A DNA stretch of 64,000 nucleotides, from NCBI GenBank assembly GCA_913063375.1, contig CAJXXR010000002.1, positions 1 through 64,000 of the forward strand. The letters run 5' to 3'. The notes under the pieces are model-generated. The model saw only the letters and a list, made by a program, of their open reading frames with translations. It searched no databases and was not told the origin of the DNA. The number at the start of each line of letters is the position of its first letter. The first letter of the stretch is position 1. A program made the position numbers and the translations under genes. This DNA is from an uncultured Flavobacteriales bacterium. GTDB taxonomy: Bacteria; Bacteroidota; Bacteroidia; Flavobacteriales; CAJXXR01. Of the stretch, positions 8,738 to 63,685 are shown in pieces.

Positions 8738-9472
8738 ATGAATGCCTGTATTGATATTGGAAACACCTTGATTAAGGTATATATTGTGGATCAGGGACTT
8801 GTGTTGGATAACTTGGTCTTGGGGAAATGGGAAAAAAAATCAATAAATTTTTTCCTGGATACGCACAAAGTCGAAAAAGTGATCATTTGCAACGTTCGGT
8901 TTGAAGAATCCGAAATGGAAAAGATGATTTCGGAAATTAATTTTCCTTGTTTGAATTTGACACATGAGATCCCTTTACCGATAAAATTGAACTACCAAAA
9001 TCCAAAAACGCTAGGTCGAGATAGAATTGCTGTTGTTGCAGGTGCAGCTATTCAATATCCAAATGAGACAAGTTTGGTTGTTGATTTGGGGACTTGCATC
9101 ACATTCGATCTGATTGATGAAGAAAAAGTATACCATGGAGGAGCTATTAGCCCTGGATTATATATGCGGCTTAAAGCTATGAATCATTTTACTGGAAGAT
9201 TACCTTTGGTGGAAATTAACCCCGAAGCTGATATTTTGGGAAATGATACCATCTCTTGTATGCAAACGGGTGCTTTTTGGGGAATAATTCATGAAATTAA
9301 GGGCGCAATAGAAGTGTTTTCCCAGCGTTATAGTCAAGTTAACATAATTTTAACTGGAGGAGATGCATCTAAATTTGAAAAGTATATAAAAAATGGCATC
9401 TTTGCGGACTCAAGTCTTTTACTAAAAGGACTTAACTATATTCTAGACTATAATGAGGAAAAATTTTCTTAA
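8738..9472 (+). CDS. coaX: Type III pantothenate kinase
   Basis: 244 residues. CoaX phosphorylates pantothenate, the first step of coenzyme A synthesis, in the cytoplasm. ASKHA-fold motifs are visible: the N-terminal phosphate loop DIGNT (residues 6-10), TLGRDR with the catalytic-site aspartate, the second phosphate motif DLGTCITFD, and GGAISPG in the substrate region. Length and motif order match the family. It heads an operon of six tightly packed genes; the following outer-membrane gene starts 20 bp before its stop. No type I CoaA is seen in the window. Confidence 0.95.
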   Translation: MNACIDIGNTLIKVYIVDQGLVLDNLVLGKWEKKSINFFLDTHKVEKVIICNVRFEESEMEKMISEINFPCLNLTHEIPLPIKLNYQNPKTLGRDRIAVVAGAAIQYPNETSLVVDLGTCITFDLIDEEKVYHGGAISPGLYMRLKAMNHFTGRLPLVEINPEADILGNDTISCMQTGAFWGIIHEIKGAIEVFSQRYSQVNIILTGGDASKFEKYIKNGIFADSSLLLKGLNYILDYNEEKFS

Positions 9473-39055: not shown

Positions 39056-42000
39056 ATGGTATTTAGACAATTACTAATTACGGTTATTGTGTTATTGAGT
39101 CTACAATTACAGGCTCAAGACAAGTATGGTCGTTTGCCTTCTGATGATGAGTTAGCTACTTATCCATATTGGATAGAAATGATGCAAGATCCACATGCAA
39201 ATTTTTTCGATACCCAGTATGCATTTGAAGTTTATTGGAAGGATAGAAAAGCTAGAAAGGGAGCAGGTTGGAAGCCTTTTAAAAGGTGGGAGAATTTTAT
39301 GTCTACCCGTGTTTCAGAAATAGGTGTGAAACCTGCCGCTCAGGATATATGGAATGCTATTCAATATGATATGGCCATGCAATCTAGTGCTAGTTCTTCG
39401 GGAGATTGGACTGAACTAGGACCAATTTCCTTACCTGCAAATGGAACAGGACAACCAAATGGTCTTGGACGTGTAAATTGTATAGCCTTTCATCCAACTA
39501 ATGCAGATACAATTTTTATTGGAGCTCCAGCTGGTGGTATTTGGAAAACCTATGATGGAGGAACAACATGGTCTTCCAATTCTGATAATTTGTCCACTTT
39601 AGGGATTTCCTCCATTTTGGTACACCCAAACTCTACTGATACAATGTATGTTGGGACGGGTGATAGAGATGGTGGTGATGCTATTGGATTAGGGGTATTA
39701 CTAAGTGTCGATGGAGGGAATTCATGGGTTAGTTCAAATACTGGTATGGGGAATGCAACGGTAGGGGCTATGCTTATCGATCCTGCTGACAATTCTATTT
39801 TATTAGCTGCAACGAACCTTGGTATTTTTAGAAGTACAAATGGAGGCGCCTCATGGAGTTCTGTTGCTTCTGGAAATTATAAGGATATACGATTTATGCC
39901 CGGAAATTCGGCAGTAGTATATGCTACTAAAAGTGGAGACTTTTATCGGTCTTCAAATAATGGTTTAACGTGGTCTGTAATTGGAAGTGGAGCTGGTCTT
40001 CCTTCTAGTAATCGATTGGTGATTGGCGTTACACCTGCGGATTCTAGTTATGTATACGCTGTATTGACTGCTGGAGATAATACCTTCCAAGGGATGTATC
40101 TTTCAGTAGATTCTGGATTGACATTCACTGAGAAGTCCACGACTCCAAATATTATGGACTATTCAAGTGATGGAAGTGGAACAAGCGGTCAAGCCTGGTA
40201 TGACTTATGTGTAGCGGTATCACCTACAAATGAAAATGAGGTATATGTAGGTGGTGTGAATGTTTTTAAATCAACAGATTCCGGAGCTAGTTGGACAATA
40301 AATGCACATTGGGTGGGTACAGGAGCTCCAGCAGTGCATGCGGATCACCACACCTTAGAATACTCACCAGTAGATGGAACATTGTATAGTGGTAATGACG
40401 GCGGTCTGTATTATCAGGCAGCCAGTACTAGTACATGGACAGATATTTCTAGTGGATTGGCTATTGCTCAATGTTATAAGTTGGGGCAGAGTGCGACCTC
40501 TTTGAATCATGTAATAGTAGGTTATCAAGATAACGGTACTGCTGTATATTCCAATGGCTCATGGTCCACTGAAATAGGCGGTGATGGTATGGAATGTATT
40601 ATAGATTATACCACCACAAACTATATGTATGGTGCATTGTATTATGGTGCGATAAGAAGGTCTTCCAATGGTGGAATTAATTTCAGTTCCATTGCAGGTA
40701 ATGGTGTAAATGGAATCACTGAGTCTGGAGGATGGGTAACACCTTATACTTTACATACAACCAATCCGAATACGATGTTTATTGGTTATAAGGATATCTG
40801 GAGAAGCACAAACGTTAAGGCTAGTTCTTCCTCTTCAGTTAGTTGGACTGAAATTTCGACTAGTTTAGGAGGTACGGGAAATTTCAATGTGGTTGAACAC
40901 AGTGCTCTTGATACCAATGTTTTCTACGCCTCAAAGGGCGCAAGTATTTTCCGATCGGATGATGTAAATGCCGGCACGGTAACATGGCAAACTTTGACTG
41001 CTCCTGGTGGGAGTACTATTAAGGATATCCTCTGTCACCCTACTGATACAAATACGGTTTATATTGCTCAAGGAACTAAGATTTATGAATCAATCGATAA
41101 AGGGGTTACTTGGATAGATATTACAGGGAATATTAATAATTCAACCATTAAAAATTGTTTAGTGTATTCTCCTGTTTCAGGATCTGAAGGATTGTATGTA
41201 GGTTCTGATTATGGTGTGTATTTTAAACCAAATAATTCTTCCAATTGGAATAGCTATTCAAATGGACTACCTGTCTATCCAAAAGTGACAGAGCTGGAAT
41301 TATTTATCAACGACTTAAGTCCAGCACAAAATTCCTTACGTGCAAGTTCTTACGGTAGAGGTCTATGGACTACCAGTATTTATGTTGATCCAAATACTCC
41401 AATTGTTGCTGATTTTTATAGCAGTGATTCTATCTCTTGTTTGGGAACGGTGGTTAACTTAATTGACGGGACTTCAGGGGTGCCTACTAGTTGGAGTTGG
41501 ACGATAACTCCCTCAACCTTCAGTTATGTTGGTGGAACAGATTCTACTTCACAGTTTCCAGAGGTGAATTTCTCATCAGTTGGGAGTTATTCCGTTAGTT
41601 TAATTGTTTCCAATTCCACCTTATCTGATACGGTTACAAAACCTAACTATATTGAAATTACTGGTGGAGAGCAACTGTTTTTGGAATTGCTTACTGATAA
41701 TTTTGCCTCTGAAACTTCTTGGATTTTATCAGATACTAACGGTACCGAAGTTCTGTCAGGAAGTGGATATGAAAACAATAGTTTGAATCTTGTAACTATG
41801 GATTGTCTTGTAGATTCTTGTTACACATTCACTATTTATGATAGTTATGGTGATGGGATTTGTTGCTCCTGGGGCTCTGGAAATTATATAATTACCAATT
41901 CAGCAGGAGATACCATGGCTTCTGGTGGTGTTTTTACGAACTCTCAAGTAAGTTCTATTTGTTTTACTCCTGTTGTCCCAAGTTTAGATTGTGATGCGGC

Positions 42001-45000
42001 TATTGATTTAACATGTGGAGAGATCTATGCTGGAACTACGCTTTTAGCAGATACTTCAATTTCCAATTATTCCTGTTCTTCTGAAGATGAAAGTGGTCCC
42101 GAGGTACTTCATAGGTTTGTACTTACAGATTCAGCTGATATAGAAATAGAATTGAATACGCTTTTAGACTTAAATATATATCTACTTGATAGTTGTCATC
42201 AGGAATCATGTATAGCCTTTGGGGATAGCACGATAAGTTTTGATGATGCCGCACCAGGAGAATATTTTATAGTTGTTGACGGTACAACTGGGGCAGCTGG
42301 GGCATATACCTTACACTATTACCAAGATGTAAACGCTACTATTTCAGTATCGAATAGTCAAATATGTGTAGGTGACTCCGTGCAGCTGAATGCCAGTGGA
42401 GCTAATGATTTTGCTTGGTCACCAGCTATTGGATTGAGTGACACCATAGGGAATGCCGTATATGCATTTCCAACTGTGACAACCACCTATTATTTGACTG
42501 GGAGTTCAAATGGATGTAGTTCAACCGATACTATTACCATTATAATTGAGAACCTTCCTGACTTAACAATATCTACAGACGTGGATAGTCTTTGTCAAGG
42601 AGATACTACACAAATTGATCTAGATGGTGCATTGGTGTATAGTTGGTTTCCTAGTGCTGGCTTAAGTTCGGATACAGGAGCTACGGTTTTGGCTTCTCCA
42701 TCAATTACAACTACTTATTATATTACCGCTACTAGTGGAGTTTGTAGTGTATCTGATAGTATAACCATCTTCGTGAAGAACATTCCAATAGTTGAAATTT
42801 CGAGTACAGATACAATACTCTGTTCAGGTGAAAGTGTTCTTTTGTTGGTCGAAGGTGCTATTGACTATTTATGGAGTCCATCAGTTGGTTTGAATACGAC
42901 AACTGGAGACTCTATATTAGCATCACCCACTTCCACAACCTTGTATACCGTAATAGGAAGCTCCAATGGTTGTTATGATACGGATTCAATTTTGGTAATC
43001 GTTAATACTATCCCGGATATTATTGTGGAAACAAATATGGATAGTCTTTGTACTGGGGATGTGGCTTTACTTACAAGTACTGGAGCAACTACTTATAGTT
43101 GGAGTCCTTCTAATGGATTAAATGCTACTAGCGGTGATTCTGTGCAAGCAAACCCAATCATTACTACCACTTATATAGTTACTGGAGAAATAGATGGCTG
43201 TAGCTCATCGGACAGTGTAACGATTGTTGTAAATGAATTTCCTTCCATCTCCATTTCAACCACCGATAGTGTGGTATGTTTGGGAGATAGCACGACAATT
43301 AGTGCCCTTGGAGCAGATAATTACAATTGGTCCCCATCGGCAGGATTGAACATGGTAAATGGTGCTACTATTGTGGCAAGCCCAATTGTAACCACCACCT
43401 ATTTATTAACCGCCGAAAGCAATGGCTGTATAGGTTATGATTCCATCACGGTAATAGTGAATACCATTCCAGATATTCTTGTTTTAGCAGATACTACAGA
43501 TTTATGTGAAGGTGATTTCACAGCATTGACAGCACTAGGTGCAGATAGCTACTTTTGGAGCCCATCAACTGGATTGAATTTAGTTACTGGAGATTCTGTT
43601 ATTGCCAGTCCTTTGGTCACTACGACATATGTTGTCACAGGTCTTTCAAATGGTTGCGTAGCAATGGATAGTATTACTTTGGTGGTACATCCTGTGCCAT
43701 TAATGGCGATTGAAACAGAGGATACTATTATTTGTCAAGGAGATTCTGTGGAGCTTTCGGTGATTGGAGCAAATAGTTATACCTGGTCGCCCTCAGTTGG
43801 TTTAAATCAAATTACAGGTTCTACAATTATAGCAAATCCCGCTGTAACTACTACCTACATAGTAGAGGGTATAACAAATGGTTGCGTTGTGATAGATTCC
43901 GTTGTTATATCTGTAGTAACAGATCCTTTATTGGTAATGTCTACAGATACAGCTTTTATATGTTTAGGAGACACGGCATTTTTAAGTGCCTCAGGAGCTA
44001 ATGCATTTAACTGGAGCCCATCTACTGGTTTGAATACTTCAAGTGGTGCCGTAGTAATGGCTTCCCCTTCTACATCAATGATGTATAGTGTAGAAGGAGT
44101 GGTTAATAATTGTATTTCATTTGATTCTATTTTTGTAATGGTTAAGACTCCGCCAACAGTTACGGCGAATCTCTTTTCTGATACTATTTGTGTAGGCGAT
44201 GCTATTTCAATAGTTGTTTCAGGTGCTGATAATTATACTTGGACCCCATCAGTTGGGTTAAATGTGGACACAGGAGCAGTTGTAATCGCTAGTCCATCGG
44301 TATCTACCAATTATGTCGTTACAGGATACCTGAACGGTTGCTTTAGCTCTGATACAGTCTTTATTGAAATGATTCAACCACCTGTTTTATCCTTTTCATT
44401 TTCAGATAGTCTTATATGCTATGGTGATTCAGTTTTACTCTCTGCAAGTGGTGCGGATACCTATATTTGGAATCCATCAAGTAGTCTTAACCAAAGTGTT
44501 GGTTCATCGGTAATGGCAATTCCTACTGTATCTACGACTTATTATGTTGAAGGAATTCAAAATGGTTGTTCTGTATTTGATTCGGTGGTAATAGGTGTTG
44601 TTCCGGAGATCGTGGTTGCCATTTCTTTAGATTCGGCATTTAACTGTGCGGGGGATTCTATTTTACTTTCAGTCACAGGTGCGGACAGTTATCATTGGAT
44701 ACCAAATACTGGTTTGAATATTGACACTGGATCTGTGGTATATGCTAGTCCACAGGTGAGCACTAATTATATTGTTGAAGGTCTTGTAAATGGGTGTATA
44801 AGTTATGATACGGTATTCGTTGAAGTGATACTATTAGATAGCCTCTCATTTTTAGTTGATAATTCAATACTTTGTCCTGGAGATAGCACTTCTATTACTG
44901 TGTATGGTGCTGATTCATACCAATGGGAGCCTGCAATTGGTTTGAGTGTGGATCAAGGGGCGATTGTTCAAGCAAGTCCAAATAATTCTACTACTTATTA

Positions 45001-46036
45001 TGTCACTGGTGAAGTGAATGGATGTCAAGTATTGGACAGTATTAGCATCTTAGTAAATCCTGTATCAAATCTTATTTTGGATCAGAGTGATAGTATAATT
45101 TGTTCAGGAGATTCTGTTTCCTTGTATGCTCAAGGAGCAGATAATATCACTTGGTATTTTGAGAGTGACACTTTATATGGCGATACCGTATATGTGGCAC
45201 CGGAAATCACTACAGAATTTCAAGTGCATGGTTATTTGGATGGCTGTAGAATTGTAGATAGTTTATTGGTTTCTGTTGAGGTGATGCCTACGCTTTCCGT
45301 AGGGTTAAATAATACTAGTATTTGTCTTGGGGATACGGGCTTAATTACTGTTTCGGGAGCTAATGGCTATAGCTGGACTTTATTGGATGGAACAAATGTG
45401 GGAACAGGAGACAGTATATATTTGTCACCTGCTATCTCAACGGAATATATTGTGATTGGAACTTCAGAGTATTGTCAGGTAGCTGATACGGTACTTTTGG
45501 AGGTAATTCCCCTTCCTGAGTTTGAAATTCTCACGGATGTGAATGTAATTTACCTTTTAGGTGATAACAATACAGTAGAATTTGAATCTACAGGAGACGG
45601 TAGTCTTTTCAATTCATGGTTTTTTGGAGATGGTGACAGTAGTGATGTAATGAATCCAAGCCATGCTTATTATATAGAAGGTCTTTATACGGTAGTTTTA
45701 GAGGCAATGGACTCCAATAACTGTAGTAGTATGGATAGCGTGCTTATAGAGGTTTTAAATAATATTTCAGTCGAAGAAATAGAAGGTCTGGACTGGTTGG
45801 ATATCTTTCCAAACCCTACAGAAGGAATTATTCATATTATGCTTGATGAAAGCCCGTTGGTAATTGATGAAATTCGAATTTTTGATGCGAGTGGTAGACA
45901 AGTGTTGGTTGAAAAACATTCCATATCAGCGTCTATAGATTTGGATATATCGAACCAACAGGATGGACATTATATCATAGCTTTAAAGGTAGGAGAGTCG
46001 GTATATACTAAGATCATCCAGAAACAAACAAAATAG
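39056..46036 (+). CDS. Giant T9SS-secreted surface protein: Vps10/BNR propeller, PKD and 14 Ig-like repeats
   Basis: 2,326 residues. A signal peptide (about 1-21, ending LQLQAQ) is followed by BNR/Vps10-type propeller repeats (about 130-760) with motifs such as GIWKTYDGGTTW and STNGGASWSS. Next come a PKD domain (about 782-870), a YDSYGDGICCSW domain (about 870-970) and a PPC-like domain (about 975-1090). Fourteen tandem Ig-like units of about 76 residues span about 1096-2156; each has a conserved Cys in CxGD, WSPSxGLN, TTTY and a second Cys in NGC. A second PKD domain (about 2157-2235) and a type A T9SS sorting domain (about 2237-2326; IFPNPTEG, closing with the KIIQ motif) follow. It is probably displayed on the cell surface as an adhesin or glycan-binding protein (inference). 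Confidence 0.9.
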   Translation: MVFRQLLITVIVLLSLQLQAQDKYGRLPSDDELATYPYWIEMMQDPHANFFDTQYAFEVYWKDRKARKGAGWKPFKRWENFMSTRVSEIGVKPAAQDIWNAIQYDMAMQSSASSSGDWTELGPISLPANGTGQPNGLGRVNCIAFHPTNADTIFIGAPAGGIWKTYDGGTTWSSNSDNLSTLGISSILVHPNSTDTMYVGTGDRDGGDAIGLGVLLSVDGGNSWVSSNTGMGNATVGAMLIDPADNSILLAATNLGIFRSTNGGASWSSVASGNYKDIRFMPGNSAVVYATKSGDFYRSSNNGLTWSVIGSGAGLPSSNRLVIGVTPADSSYVYAVLTAGDNTFQGMYLSVDSGLTFTEKSTTPNIMDYSSDGSGTSGQAWYDLCVAVSPTNENEVYVGGVNVFKSTDSGASWTINAHWVGTGAPAVHADHHTLEYSPVDGTLYSGNDGGLYYQAASTSTWTDISSGLAIAQCYKLGQSATSLNHVIVGYQDNGTAVYSNGSWSTEIGGDGMECIIDYTTTNYMYGALYYGAIRRSSNGGINFSSIAGNGVNGITESGGWVTPYTLHTTNPNTMFIGYKDIWRSTNVKASSSSSVSWTEISTSLGGTGNFNVVEHSALDTNVFYASKGASIFRSDDVNAGTVTWQTLTAPGGSTIKDILCHPTDTNTVYIAQGTKIYESIDKGVTWIDITGNINNSTIKNCLVYSPVSGSEGLYVGSDYGVYFKPNNSSNWNSYSNGLPVYPKVTELELFINDLSPAQNSLRASSYGRGLWTTSIYVDPNTPIVADFYSSDSISCLGTVVNLIDGTSGVPTSWSWTITPSTFSYVGGTDSTSQFPEVNFSSVGSYSVSLIVSNSTLSDTVTKPNYIEITGGEQLFLELLTDNFASETSWILSDTNGTEVLSGSGYENNSLNLVTMDCLVDSCYTFTIYDSYGDGICCSWGSGNYIITNSAGDTMASGGVFTNSQVSSICFTPVVPSLDCDAAIDLTCGEIYAGTTLLADTSISNYSCSSEDESGPEVLHRFVLTDSADIEIELNTLLDLNIYLLDSCHQESCIAFGDSTISFDDAAPGEYFIVVDGTTGAAGAYTLHYYQDVNATISVSNSQICVGDSVQLNASGANDFAWSPAIGLSDTIGNAVYAFPTVTTTYYLTGSSNGCSSTDTITIIIENLPDLTISTDVDSLCQGDTTQIDLDGALVYSWFPSAGLSSDTGATVLASPSITTTYYITATSGVCSVSDSITIFVKNIPIVEISSTDTILCSGESVLLLVEGAIDYLWSPSVGLNTTTGDSILASPTSTTLYTVIGSSNGCYDTDSILVIVNTIPDIIVETNMDSLCTGDVALLTSTGATTYSWSPSNGLNATSGDSVQANPIITTTYIVTGEIDGCSSSDSVTIVVNEFPSISISTTDSVVCLGDSTTISALGADNYNWSPSAGLNMVNGATIVASPIVTTTYLLTAESNGCIGYDSITVIVNTIPDILVLADTTDLCEGDFTALTALGADSYFWSPSTGLNLVTGDSVIASPLVTTTYVVTGLSNGCVAMDSITLVVHPVPLMAIETEDTIICQGDSVELSVIGANSYTWSPSVGLNQITGSTIIANPAVTTTYIVEGITNGCVVIDSVVISVVTDPLLVMSTDTAFICLGDTAFLSASGANAFNWSPSTGLNTSSGAVVMASPSTSMMYSVEGVVNNCISFDSIFVMVKTPPTVTANLFSDTICVGDAISIVVSGADNYTWTPSVGLNVDTGAVVIASPSVSTNYVVTGYLNGCFSSDTVFIEMIQPPVLSFSFSDSLICYGDSVLLSASGADTYIWNPSSSLNQSVGSSVMAIPTVSTTYYVEGIQNGCSVFDSVVIGVVPEIVVAISLDSAFNCAGDSILLSVTGADSYHWIPNTGLNIDTGSVVYASPQVSTNYIVEGLVNGCISYDTVFVEVILLDSLSFLVDNSILCPGDSTSITVYGADSYQWEPAIGLSVDQGAIVQASPNNSTTYYVTGEVNGCQVLDSISILVNPVSNLILDQSDSIICSGDSVSLYAQGADNITWYFESDTLYGDTVYVAPEITTEFQVHGYLDGCRIVDSLLVSVEVMPTLSVGLNNTSICLGDTGLITVSGANGYSWTLLDGTNVGTGDSIYLSPAISTEYIVIGTSEYCQVADTVLLEVIPLPEFEILTDVNVIYLLGDNNTVEFESTGDGSLFNSWFFGDGDSSDVMNPSHAYYIEGLYTVVLEAMDSNNCSSMDSVLIEVLNNISVEEIEGLDWLDIFPNPTEGIIHIMLDESPLVIDEIRIFDASGRQVLVEKHSISASIDLDISNQQDGHYIIALKVGESVYTKIIQKQTK
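42341..45523 (+). repeat. Fourteen tandem Ig-like coding repeats (about 228 bp each)
   Basis: The units are diverged at DNA level but aligned in protein: CxGD, then SGA or GAD, W(S/T)PSxGLN, ASPxxTTTY, NGC and DS(I/V). Units 1-12 keep all marks. Units 13 and 14 lose the SPSxGLN segment. Each unit holds a Cys pair likely to form a disulfide. Confidence 0.85.
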
Positions 46037-56141: not shown

Positions 56142-57809
56142 TTATTTTAAACCAACAATTGCTTCAGTTACATTTATGATGTGGTCTCCTACTTTTTCTA
56201 ATGAATGTAGTAGATCATTATAGATAAGTGCAGTGTCAATTTTATAATCTCCAGCTTGAAGATTTTTCAAGTGTGCTGATCTCAGTTCATTTCTCAACTC
56301 GTTGATCTCTTCTTCCGCTTCTTTAGCTTGTTTTAGACTAACATTCGCATATGGTGAGTTCAAGTTGCTTGTCATTATATTCATAGCGACATTTACCTTT
56401 TGGATCATAGATTCGATGTTCTTTCTATTCTCTGGGGTGAAATATGCTTTGGACTCTCTTCTTCTTTCAAGACTTTTTGACATTTGGTAAACGATATCAC
56501 CAATTCTCTCAAGATCTCCAACAATACTCAGTAGGCTCCTTGTTCTAGAAGATGCGGTTTCACTCAATCCTTCTTCAGAAGTTACAGATAAGAAATTTGC
56601 AATCTCAATTTCCATTTTATCTGTGATATCCTCATACTTATGGATGCGCTTCAGTTTTTTGTTGAATTTTTTATCTTCTGTTTCAACTAATAATTCTGGA
56701 AGCATATCGTACAATCGTTGTGTGATTTCACCAAAGTGAGAAACTTCTTTTGTTGCTTCTTCTATTGAAAGTTCGGGAGAAGTGAATACGCCAGTACCGA
56801 TATGTCTCAAGGTAAATATTTCATCATCATCACCTTTTGATTTAACTGATTTGATAGCCATATTTACCAACTGCTTAACAAAGCCAACGCAAAGTAAAAC
56901 ATTGATAAGGTTAAATGCAGTATGGAACATTGCAAGGGCGAATTTATTCGTATCTCCACCTGTGGTGTCGGGTAGGAACATTTCTAGAACATCCAAGAAC
57001 CATGGCATAATAAGAACCATCCAGAGAACCCCTATGATATTAAACATTGAGTGGATTCTTGCAGATCGTTTTGCATGGACATTTGCTACCATGGAAGCTA
57101 ATTCGGCTGTGATGGTTGTTCCGATATTCTCACCAAGAACCATTGCAGCTGCAATGTCTAGTGGAAGTCCCTGTGTAGTTAAGGTAATGGTTAAGGCCAT
57201 TGCTGCACTACTTGATTGAACGATTACCGTTAGTAATGTACCAACCCCAACAAATAACAACCTTGTAAAGAATCCAGGATTCGTAAATTGGTGCAAGAAT
57301 TCTAGCACCTCTGGATTGTTTTTGATATCTGGGACGGCATTTTTTAATTCACCAAGTCCTAAGAATAAAATGGCAAAACCAATGGCAACTTCAGCCCATT
57401 TTCTTCTGCTCTGCTTGTTAGCAAACATGAAAGGAAATGCGATACCAATAATTGGAAGTGCGTAGTGAGCAACTTTTACTTTAAATCCGATAAGTGAAAC
57501 TAACCAACCTGTAATTGTGGTACCAATATTGGCTCCCATCATTACACCTGCTGATTCTACTAGTGAAATTAATCCGGCATTTACAAAACTAACGGTCATA
57601 ACCGTAGTTGCAGATGACGATTGTAAGATGGCTGTAATTAAGAATCCTGTACCTACACCTGTAAATCTGTTGGAGGTCATTTTTCTCAAAACCTGACGCA
57701 TTTTCGAACCAGCTACTTGCTGTAGTGCGTCACTCATTATCTTCATCCCGTAGATGAAAAATCCTAATGCTCCAATTACCGTAAGGAGATCCCAGAATCC
57801 AAATTCCAT
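56142..57809 (-). CDS. Na/phosphate cotransporter (NptA/PNaS family) with PhoU-like tail
   Basis: 555 residues from the ATG at 57809. Two inverted Na/Pi cotransporter repeats carry the QSSSATT (about 60) and QSSSAAM (about 200) motifs, with GANIGTTIT and GENIGTTIT after them. A cytoplasmic PhoU-like helical domain (about 345-555) contains SLLSIVGDLERIGDIVYQ and LHSLEKVGDHI. It imports phosphate with sodium. A longer frame to 57839 is rejected because it begins upstream of the transcript start predicted from the TACTTTTG box at 57837-57844. It diverges from the OprP/O-like porin, and phased repeats lie between them. Confidence 0.92.
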   Translation of the reverse strand: MEFGFWDLLTVIGALGFFIYGMKIMSDALQQVAGSKMRQVLRKMTSNRFTGVGTGFLITAILQSSSATTVMTVSFVNAGLISLVESAGVMMGANIGTTITGWLVSLIGFKVKVAHYALPIIGIAFPFMFANKQSRRKWAEVAIGFAILFLGLGELKNAVPDIKNNPEVLEFLHQFTNPGFFTRLLFVGVGTLLTVIVQSSSAAMALTITLTTQGLPLDIAAAMVLGENIGTTITAELASMVANVHAKRSARIHSMFNIIGVLWMVLIMPWFLDVLEMFLPDTTGGDTNKFALAMFHTAFNLINVLLCVGFVKQLVNMAIKSVKSKGDDDEIFTLRHIGTGVFTSPELSIEEATKEVSHFGEITQRLYDMLPELLVETEDKKFNKKLKRIHKYEDITDKMEIEIANFLSVTSEEGLSETASSRTRSLLSIVGDLERIGDIVYQMSKSLERRRESKAYFTPENRKNIESMIQKVNVAMNIMTSNLNSPYANVSLKQAKEAEEEINELRNELRSAHLKNLQAGDYKIDTALIYNDLLHSLEKVGDHIINVTEAIVGLK

Positions 57810-57836
57810 GATTTTCGTTTTATTGATTTTCTGAGG

Positions 57837-57844
57837 CAAAAGTA
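57837..57844 (-). promoter_or_regulatory. -7 box (TACTTTTG) of the Na/Pi cotransporter
   Basis: Perfect TAnnTTTG match giving a leader of about 24 nt. No TTG occupies the -33 site; a GTTAAG repeat lies there, suggesting an activator-dependent promoter. Confidence 0.6.
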
Positions 57845-57865: not shown

Positions 57866-57904
57866 GTTAAGGGGTTATTATGTCTATGTTAACTTAATGT
57901 TAAC
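57866..57904 (-). promoter_or_regulatory. Putative Pho box upstream of the Na/Pi cotransporter
   Basis: GTTAAG at 57866, GTTAAC at 57888 and GTTAAC at 57899 are phased by 22 and 11 bp. On the minus strand the last two read TTAACA-N5-TTAACA, the same spacing and nearly the same word as PhoP/PhoB direct repeats. The proximal copy lies where the -33 element should be. Confidence 0.55.
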
Positions 57905-58019
57905 TCGGTGTGCTCTTAAGGTTTTTTAGGAGATGTGAAATTAAATTCAATACTAGTGTATTGTCAATGAAATTAGGTGTTTATGAAGTTTTCGCCTTGA
58001 AAATGAAAATATACTATGC

Positions 58020-58047
58020 TTTAAGAAAAGGTTAAGAAAGGGTAATG
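58020..58047 (+). promoter_or_regulatory. Putative Pho box upstream of the OprP/O porin
   Basis: TTTAAG (58020), GTTAAG (58031) and GTAATG (58042) are spaced 11 bp apart and end 3 bp before the -33 TTTG of the porin promoter. A further GTTAAG at 58062 lies inside the promoter spacer. Confidence 0.5.
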
Positions 58048-58050
58048 TGC

Positions 58051-58081
58051 TTTGACTGAATGTTAAGACTTTTCATATTTG
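58051..58081 (+). promoter_or_regulatory. Promoter of the OprP/O-like porin
   Basis: The -33 TTTG (58051-58054) and -7 CATATTTG (58074-58081, one mismatch to TAnnTTTG) are separated by 19 bp. The predicted start is near 58085, giving a leader of about 100 nt. Confidence 0.65.
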
Positions 58082-58184: not shown

Positions 58185-59327
58185 ATGTATCAAAATTTGA
58201 AACATAGTATCCCTAAAGTATTGTTCACTTTAGTATTTATTTGTGCATCTGTTGTGACTGCAAAGGCACAGAGTTTAACAAGTGATAAATTTGGAAAGGG
58301 GCTTCGTATGATGGCTGCAGACAGTTCATTTGCTGTGAAGTTTAGTGCAAGAATGCAAAATAGATATGTAGGGACCTATGTAGGTGAAACAGATCCTTCT
58401 TATGTAGAGGAGATGTTTTTGAGAAGAGCTCGTTTTAAATTTGATGGGTATGCATTGACACCAAAATTGGTGTATAAAATTGAATACGATGCCGTAAATG
58501 CAGAGATTCTTGATGCTGTAGTGAAATGGAACTTTACTGGAGATTGGACATTGTGGATGGGGCAGACAAAGCTTCCTGGAAATAGAGAACGTGTTATTTC
58601 GTCTCAGAAATTACAATTTGTAGATCGTTCACTTTTGAATTCCAAATTTACCATAGATCGTGATAAAGGAATTCAACTAAGGACGCATTACAATATGGGG
58701 AACATGTTGGTTAGACATATTGGATCTATTTCTTTGGGTGAAGGGAAGAATTATACAGGGAAAAGTGAAGGAAGAGATTATACCTATAGATTAGAATTAT
58801 TGCCTTTTGGGAAATTTACGAGTAAAGGGGATTATTTCGGAGCAGATTTGAAAAGAGAAGAGGACCCAAAGTTAGCGTTTGGCCTTACGTATGATTATAA
58901 TGATAATGCTGTAAGAGCAAGAGGGCAGAAAGGTGACTTCATGTCTGAGTCGAGAGATTTGGAAACGATTTTTGCTGATATGATGTTTAAGTATCAAGGT
59001 TTTTCATTCATGGCTGAATATGCGAATAGAAAGGTGAATGAAGGTTCTGTATATATTGCTGCGGATGAGGCTTCGTATTACACAGGAGAATCAATAAACG
59101 CAAGTCTTGGTTATCTTTGTGATGATAATTGGGAGCTTGCTGCTAGGTATACGGGGGTTACTCCTGAAAGTGCTACTGGGAATAATGAACTTACAGAGTA
59201 TACATTGGGTGTATCAAAGTATGTCGTTGGTCACAGTTTGAAGGTGCAGTCTGACTTCACATTGAAAGAGGAAGAAGGTAAAGATGATGCATTTATTTTT
59301 AGACTTCAATTAGAAGTGTCACTTTAA
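58185..59327 (+). CDS. OprP/OprO-type phosphate-selective porin
   Basis: 380 residues. A signal peptide (about 1-29, cut after TAKAQ) is followed by a beta-barrel with alternating strands rich in Tyr, Phe and Arg. Early stretches (FSARMQNRYVG, FLRRARFKFDGYAL, YKIEYDAVNAEILDA, WMGQTKLPGNRE) match the OprP/O family. The last residue pair before the stop is Ser-Leu, not Phe. These porins pass phosphate or polyphosphate through the outer membrane. The Na/Pi transporter is divergent, and both have Pho-box-like repeats, supporting a phosphate role. Basic loop residues for anion selection were not mapped. Confidence 0.87.
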   Translation: MYQNLKHSIPKVLFTLVFICASVVTAKAQSLTSDKFGKGLRMMAADSSFAVKFSARMQNRYVGTYVGETDPSYVEEMFLRRARFKFDGYALTPKLVYKIEYDAVNAEILDAVVKWNFTGDWTLWMGQTKLPGNRERVISSQKLQFVDRSLLNSKFTIDRDKGIQLRTHYNMGNMLVRHIGSISLGEGKNYTGKSEGRDYTYRLELLPFGKFTSKGDYFGADLKREEDPKLAFGLTYDYNDNAVRARGQKGDFMSESRDLETIFADMMFKYQGFSFMAEYANRKVNEGSVYIAADEASYYTGESINASLGYLCDDNWELAARYTGVTPESATGNNELTEYTLGVSKYVVGHSLKVQSDFTLKEEEGKDDAFIFRLQLEVSL

Positions 59328-59445: not shown

Positions 59446-60225
59446 ATGAAAGCATTTTTTGGAGAGCTGATAGGGACATTTATATTGGTATTTATGGGGA
59501 CAGCTTCTGTAGCGTTGGCTATTAGCGGAGAAGCTTTTTCTGGTTTGTTTCAAATTGCATGCGTTTGGGGCTTGGCAGTTTTTTTGGGTATTGTAGCTTC
59601 TGCAAAATTGTCAGATAGCCACCTAAATCCTGCTGTATCTGTAGCGATGTTGATGGCTAAGAATATTTCAAAAAATGCTTTTGGTAAATATATTTCAGGT
59701 CAATTGGTGGGCGCCTTGATTGCTGGATTGGGCGTGTACTTTTTCTTTGGAGATAGTTTGGCTTTGGTTGAATTGAAGAAAGGAATACTTCGTGGAGCGG
59801 AAGGTTCTCATTATACTGCGGCAGCTTTTGGAGAGTTTTTTCCAAATCCTGGATTTGAAGGGAAGATTGTTGCAGGACATGGAACGGCATTTGCAGCTGA
59901 ATTTTTGGGTACCTTTTTGCTGGTGCTTGGGATATTTGGGATTGTAGAAAAGTTCCCTAGCGATAATCTGTTAGCGCCTATGTTTATTGGTTCGTTGGTA
60001 ACACTGATTATTTGTATCATTGCACCAATAAGTCAAGCAGGATTGAATCCAGCGAGAGATTTGATGCCTAGGCTAGTTGCTTATTTCGTGGGCTGGGGAG
60101 ATGCTGCTTTTCCACCTGCAAAATATATGGCTGTAACGGTATATGTTATAGCTCCTATTTTTGGTGGGATGTGTGCATTTTGGTTAAAGACCTTTTTCAG
60201 TAAATTGATCTCTGATAGCGAGTAA
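59446..60225 (+). CDS. MIP-family channel, aquaglyceroporin type
   Basis: 259 residues with six membrane helices and two half-helix loops. The first is SHLNPAVS (about 58-65) and the second AGLNPARDLMPRL (about 198-210). An Asp after the second NPAR is typical of glycerol-facilitator types such as GlpF, as against pure aquaporins. FFSKLISDSE closes the chain. No glycerol kinase is nearby. Its 3' end overlaps the convergent GGGP synthase gene by 42 bp. Confidence 0.9.
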   Translation: MKAFFGELIGTFILVFMGTASVALAISGEAFSGLFQIACVWGLAVFLGIVASAKLSDSHLNPAVSVAMLMAKNISKNAFGKYISGQLVGALIAGLGVYFFFGDSLALVELKKGILRGAEGSHYTAAAFGEFFPNPGFEGKIVAGHGTAFAAEFLGTFLLVLGIFGIVEKFPSDNLLAPMFIGSLVTLIICIIAPISQAGLNPARDLMPRLVAYFVGWGDAAFPPAKYMAVTVYVIAPIFGGMCAFWLKTFFSKLISDSE

Positions 60226-63581: not shown

Positions 63582-63685
63582 TGTAAAAAAAGGTTAAAAT
63601 TTTGTTAAAAAAGGCTTTGCTAGTCGCCTTCCATTGTGTAAATTTACCCGATTGAAATGTAGAAAATAGATCAAAAAACTCGTGT

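Follow-up and report, generated by a model that had tools for sequence, protein, structure and literature searches.

In Bacillus subtilis, which belongs to a different phylum and has a different type of promoter, the PhoP box is made of TT(A/C/T)ACA units separated by about 5 bp, a word nearly identical to the repeat unit described below. In E. coli and other bacteria, the Pho box of PhoB consists of 11-bp direct repeats, bound head to tail by this OmpR-family regulator at phosphate genes (PMC4415409). Within the Bacteroidota, Pho regulons have been traced through expression and binding data, and operator architecture was not found described in the literature searched. PhoB of Bacteroides fragilis binds its own pstC promoter, with no motif stated (PMC3547664). 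In Flavobacterium johnsoniae, phoB and phoR are neighbours of genes for a TonB-dependent receptor and a lipoprotein (Fjoh_0543-0546), the last two being strongly induced by Pi depletion; its OprP (Fjoh_0542) is not induced, and no operator is described there (PMC8115612). In Riemerella anatipestifer (Flavobacteriales), DAP-seq of PhoP gave a motif with the core TTTAACA, bound also upstream of its own operon, and the regulon was interpreted mainly as virulence and redox; in the portion consulted, no 11-bp spacing, register or pst, porin or cotransporter targets are stated (PMC9603813).

Like the PhoB Pho box, the array presented here consists of 11-bp direct repeats, which overlie the upstream element of pstS, phoB and transporter promoters. 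It differs from that of E. coli in its unit, TTAACATT instead of CTGTCAT, and in its register, which is set to the Bacteroidota -7 box TAnnTTTG (19+11n nt) and not to a -10 hexamer, with two to four units per array. Its unit has the same core as the Riemerella PhoP motif, a likeness of the two regulators by motif alone. The first-pass annotation knew of no such operator described in this group. This can be kept for the 11-bp architecture and the promoter register, but not for the TTTAACA core, already published for Riemerella. In the literature, mostly non-subscription, we found no account of the 11-bp architecture, of a register to the Bacteroidota promoter, or of such arrays at pst, phoB, porin and cotransporter genes. 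Pho boxes are in themselves familiar; what is new here is how widely the motif occurs and that it keeps a register to the Bacteroidota promoter.

The divergent gap and the cotransporter promoter

The window, i.e., the whole stretch of 64,000 nt that was analysed, comes from a 2.46-Mb draft genome (34 contigs, 83% complete), within which comparisons consisted of pattern searches and a single 16-kb stretch. Its relatives, named ones and symbiont-sized genomes among them, suggest that it belongs to the order Flavobacteriales. A Na/Pi cotransporter gene and a porin gene diverge there from a gap of 372 bp. The cotransporter also matched the Na/Pi symporter model NF037997 (176 bits) and TIGR00704 (219 bits), both above cut-off. 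The features of this side of the gap are as follows.

56142-57812, minus strand: Na/Pi cotransporter with a C-terminal PhoU domain, 556 aa from the ATG at 57812 (PF02690, 195 bits; PF01895, 50.7 bits)
57837-57844, minus strand: cotransporter -7 box TACTTTTG, a perfect TAnnTTTG (from the sequence; top match of the promoter model, TTTG starting at 57840)
57866-57870, minus strand: TTAAC unit at the -33 position, 30 nt before TTTG (from the sequence and the 19+11n register)
57877-57881, minus strand: degenerate unit ATAAT, 41 nt before TTTG (predicted from the phase)
57887-57892, minus strand: TTAACA unit, 52 nt before TTTG (from the sequence and the register)
57898-57903, minus strand: TTAACA unit, 63 nt before TTTG (from the sequence and the register)

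A TTG at 57839, which overlaps the -7 box, is unlikely as the start of the cotransporter.

On the plus strand, GTTAAG (57866-57871) and two GTTAAC words (57888-57893 and 57899-57904) succeed each other at spacings of 22 and 11 bp. The GTTAAC/GTTAAG-type words of the gap were thus found where the first-pass annotation had put them, and the two GTTAAC words do read TTAACA-N5-TTAACA on the minus strand. In blocks of 11 bp, this strand reads TTAACATTAAG, TTAACATAGAC, ATAATAACCCC, TTAACCAGAAC, CGAAAAATCCT and GAATTACTTTTG, ending in the -7 box TACTTTTG. For sigma-A of flavobacteria, the -7 consensus is TAnnTTTG, at -12 to -5 (PMC9723704), and therefore the unit located 30 nt before TTTG covers -38 to -33. 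With TACTTTTG as the -7 box, the TTAAC starting from base 57870 lies precisely at this distance, so the array takes the place of the cotransporter -33 element, as had been proposed. A -7 box closer to the GTTAAC pair was also considered and dropped, TACTTTTG fitting the register.

We consider, with a probability of roughly 0.85, that this array serves PhoB as an operator, a Pho box of a Bacteroidota type overlapping the -33 position, and that the porin pair is a probable second, weaker site. Under phosphate starvation, PhoR would phosphorylate PhoB, and phosphorylated PhoB would bind the TTAACATT units head to tail with a spacing of 11 bp. The unit located 30 nt upstream of TTTG would take the -33 position, PhoB would recruit the sigma-A polymerase to the -7 box TACTTTTG, and the Na/Pi cotransporter would be switched on. 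Binding of PhoB to the predicted operator, the sense in which it regulates and its response to phosphate are extrapolated from known PhoB biology (PMC4415409).

Recurrence in relatives and register to the -7 box

The phased motif was found to be enriched near other phosphate genes, namely upstream of pstS, phoB and OprP-like porins, which was the test that the first-pass annotation had proposed against itself. Pairs of TTAA at 11 bp numbered 32 (2.7 expected) upstream of 19 pstS genes of Flavobacteriales and 41 (2.3 expected) upstream of 30 phoB loci, our own included, vs. 4 (1.9 expected, no clear excess) for ahcY, the sole control gene; such shuffle comparisons overstate independence because homologous loci share descent, though the loci span several families. 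For 12 close porin homologues of the same order, the pairs peaked at 11, 22 and 33 bp (13, 12 and 5 pairs; 0.8 expected at 11 bp), and peaks at these three spacings in relatives are those of the direct repeats of a Pho box; porins below about 40% identity had no array. Among 80 named Bacteroidota porin loci (Flavobacteriales, Pontibacter, Fulvivirga, Roseivirga and Saprospiraceae), an 11-bp pair occurred in 34, vs. 4-9 for neighbouring spacings. The closest cotransporter orthologues (57-69% identity), taken from the unselected list, possessed an 11-bp TTAA pair in four cases out of six, and more distant cotransporter homologues were mostly devoid of an upstream array. Like the Pho box, the repeats thus occur at several phosphate genes (pstS, phoB, porin and cotransporter), as judged against the single control.

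When porin, cotransporter, phoB and pstS promoters were pooled, the distance between TTAA and the TTTG of the -7 box showed a preference for 19, 30, 41, 52 and 63 nt, i.e., 19+11n, with 54-56 in-phase cases, where shuffles gave 2-4 and the control 2-3; the 7 cotransporter relatives entering these register counts and the spacing counts were chosen partly after their arrays had been seen. The alignment on TTTG of 48 promoters from other genomes, selected only for at least two in-phase TTAA words, revealed TTAACATT units with strongly conserved positions, and the TA of TAnnTTTG emerged from it without any selection for TA.

These results bear on a general explanation, according to which the 11-bp spacing would reflect the helical phasing of AT-rich promoters, with no specific regulator. 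TTAA is indeed frequent in AT-rich sequence, a spacing of 11 bp approximates one helical turn, and a slight 11-bp excess (81 vs. about 50) persisted in the rest of the 80 loci, although this rest includes some other phosphate genes. However, the ahcY control, the lock on the -7 box, confined to phosphate promoters, and the conservation of the specific unit TTAACATT largely refute this explanation, which we regard as extremely improbable.

A weight matrix was built from the 48 promoters, sequences of our own genome and of its family-mate being excluded. Applied to the 127,860 positions of the window, it ranked the cotransporter promoter first, with 31.3 bits vs. 8.7 for the runner-up. Held-out pstS promoters exceeded 18 bits in 17 of 19 cases (leave-one-out), phoB regions reached 10 bits or more in 19 of 30, the best-scoring ones pointing toward the divergent gene, and no ahcY region (0/30) exceeded 10 bits. 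As tests, the cross-genome model and the leave-one-out scores of pstS carry more weight than the shuffles. The cotransporter promoter of the family-mate obtained only 2.3 bits. A fixed position over the upstream promoter element, as expected of a Pho box, was found for the cotransporter, and the porin side is in a different register. If the PhoB reading is correct, TTAACATT every 11 bp at 19+11n nt to TAnnTTTG would give a precise and testable means of predicting PhoB-activated promoters in Flavobacteriales and related Bacteroidota, uncultured ones included.

The bare pair TTAACN6TTAAC occurred at 12 mutually independent sites (13 rows) across the 2.46 Mb, so that about 0.002 would be expected in the 372-bp gap. 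This is no genome-wide excess (13 vs. 36 for the reversed control), and the evidence therefore lies in the placing and the promoter register, not in the number of matches. Once anchored to the promoter, the pattern matched three times in our genome, at the cotransporter, in the gap between phoB-phoR and a TonB-dependent receptor gene, and in coding DNA at 9340, the latter being a coincidence. The family-mate (G001) gave four matches, in the phoBR/receptor gap, in a stretch resembling the 9340 coding site, and at the following two loci.

L250 (G001:C9) and L251 (G001:C19): matches before a PhoD-like phosphatase gene and a DegP-like protease gene (from the pattern search)

The reversed control of the anchored pattern was more frequent than the pattern itself, so that here again the placing counts and not the number. 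Upstream of the sole PhoD homologue found in our own genome, no array was seen.

The porin side of the gap

The other side of the gap comprises the following features.

58021-58026, plus strand: TTAAGA unit, 57 nt before the TTTG at 58078 (from the sequence; 57/46 register also in L169 and L171)
58032-58037, plus strand: TTAAGA unit, 46 nt before the TTTG at 58078 (from the sequence; 46 register also in L168-L171)
58043-58047, plus strand: weak, degenerate third unit TAATG, 35 nt before the TTTG at 58078 (predicted from the phase)
58051-58054, plus strand: TTTG, likely the porin -33 element, or else the -7 TTTG of a promoter in the 19/30 register (from the sequence)
58074-58081, plus strand: likely porin -7 box CATATTTG (from the sequence; TTTCATATTTG present in L169 and L171 too)
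58185-59327, plus strand: OprP/OprO-type porin (Porin_O_P), 380 aa (PF07396, 35.9 bits vs. a cut-off of 20.9)

The OprP/OprO label is the name of the PF07396 family, which by itself leaves the phosphate selectivity of this porin putative. Directly downstream and on the same strand lies an aquaporin/glycerol-channel (MIP) gene (59446-60225).

The plus strand reads here TTAAGAAAAGG, TTAAGAAAGGG and TAATG, then the -33 TTTG and the -7 box CATATTTG. As described in the first-pass annotation, the array stops 3 bp before the -33 element, TAATG ending at 58047 and TTTG starting at 58051. An additional GTTAAG at 58062 is out of phase. The units located 46 and 57 nt before TTTG are half a turn off the main register. 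Alternatively, the TTTG at 58051 could be the porin -7 box in the main register (19/30), without the TA of TAnnTTTG. The promoter model scored low for both readings (-15.7 or -20.2).

Porin promoters of the nearest relatives that share this divergent layout have the 57/46 register in L169 and L171, and that of 46 nt alone in L168 and L170; 46 nt also forms a minor peak across the 80 porins. Since this register is common to the nearest relatives, an array just upstream of an intact porin -33 element has some comparative support. A second register (35/46/57 nt before TTTG), identical to that in the window, was observed in the porin promoters of L168-L171, L173, L177, L181, L197, L239 and L242, which are possibly a class activated from upstream of -33.

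The Pho box might also be limited to the cotransporter side, the porin repeat being due to chance or having another role and the porin being phosphate-independent. We hold this as a tentative possibility: taken alone, the TTAAGA pair is mildly unusual (reached by 19 of 300 shuffles), its promoter scores poorly in the model, and the lack of induction of the F. johnsoniae OprP by Pi depletion (PMC8115612) weakens the porin half of the PhoB-operator reading. Against it stand the register common to the relatives, the minor peak at 46 nt, and the strong in-register arrays carried by close porin homologues in other genomes. On the whole, we lean toward an operator function of the porin-side array, which is weaker and less certain than the cotransporter array and is set in a second register common to close relatives. 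The TTAAGA pair would then probably be a weaker PhoB site acting just upstream of the intact -33 element.

The PhoB-type regulator and phosphate uptake

The search for PF00486 (OmpR/PhoB-type) regulators in our own genome revealed one, containing a receiver and an OmpR-type winged-helix domain (PF00072 and PF00486, over cut-off). Its two best NCBIfam models are those of PhoB (TIGR02154/NF053854), both below the equivalog cut-off (221.8 vs. 296.2 and 216.4 vs. 270 bits), and it is therefore termed PhoB-like by function and context. A PhoR-like kinase gene follows, the phoB-phoR pair lying on another contig than the window. The regulator gene is divergent from a TonB-dependent receptor gene, behind which a lipoprotein-like gene (no Pfam match) is located. 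The same gene types are thus adjacent at L047:6366-12517 as in the phoBR locus of F. johnsoniae, receptor and lipoprotein being matched by type alone. The gap between phoB-phoR and the receptor contains TTAACCCAACC followed by TTAAC, as well as ATAACATCCAG followed by TTAACA, these last two units preceding the TTTG of the receptor's perfect TAACTTTG box by 41 and 30 nt. The receptor promoter scores poorly in the model (-14.5) despite the in-register position of these two units. An array also stands before the lipoprotein-like gene itself.

L047:11175-11270 (G000:C16): in-register array with a TTTCTTTG box before the lipoprotein-like gene (promoter model, 18.3 bits)

In relatives, the orthologue of the regulator adjoins pstS, lies near the cotransporter, or follows the divergent cotransporter/porin pair (L169-L171). 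Such neighbourhoods help to judge whether a different OmpR-family regulator, e.g., an ArcA-like redox regulator, could bind the array, phosphate genes being just part of its targets. In Riemerella, the PhoP motif matched the ArcA motif, and respiration and aerotolerance genes were among the targets (PMC9603813); our regulator is also below the PhoB cut-offs. Nevertheless, it is the one PF00486 regulator found in the genome, its best models are PhoB, and in many relatives its orthologue neighbours pstS, the cotransporter and the porin, exactly the genes at which the arrays sit. We consider binding by such a different regulator improbable.

The breadth of the Riemerella regulon beyond phosphate genes, the scores of the regulator below the PhoB cut-offs, and the poor scores of the porin and family-mate cotransporter promoters nonetheless weaken the PhoB-operator reading. 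The phosphate-starvation operator suggested in the first-pass annotation is supported by arrays at pstS, phoB, porins, the closest cotransporters and the PhoB-type operon of the genome itself, and less firmly on the porin side, which is weaker and in another register.

No PstS, and no PhoU domain except that fused to the cotransporter, was found in our own genome (83% complete), and no PstS in that of the family-mate (99% complete). Where no Pst was detected, the array suggests the Na/Pi cotransporter as a target of PhoB, and this cotransporter may be the main Pi importer. As no PstS or separate PhoU was found and the C-terminus of the cotransporter is a PhoU domain, one may speculate that this protein is both a PhoB-controlled Pi importer and a phosphate reporter to PhoR, in a Pst-free sensing loop; we regard this as doubtful. 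If true, the operator of the window would close the feedback of this loop.

Two other observations were made in the window. A very large repetitive protein of the secreted type (2326 aa) is encoded at 39056-46036, and its C-terminus resembles, by eye only, a type IX secretion sorting domain. Also, TTAACAAAATTTTAAC is present at 63593-63608 (a low 6.2 bits in the promoter model) between two divergent genes, the right one having a TonB-receptor-like start.
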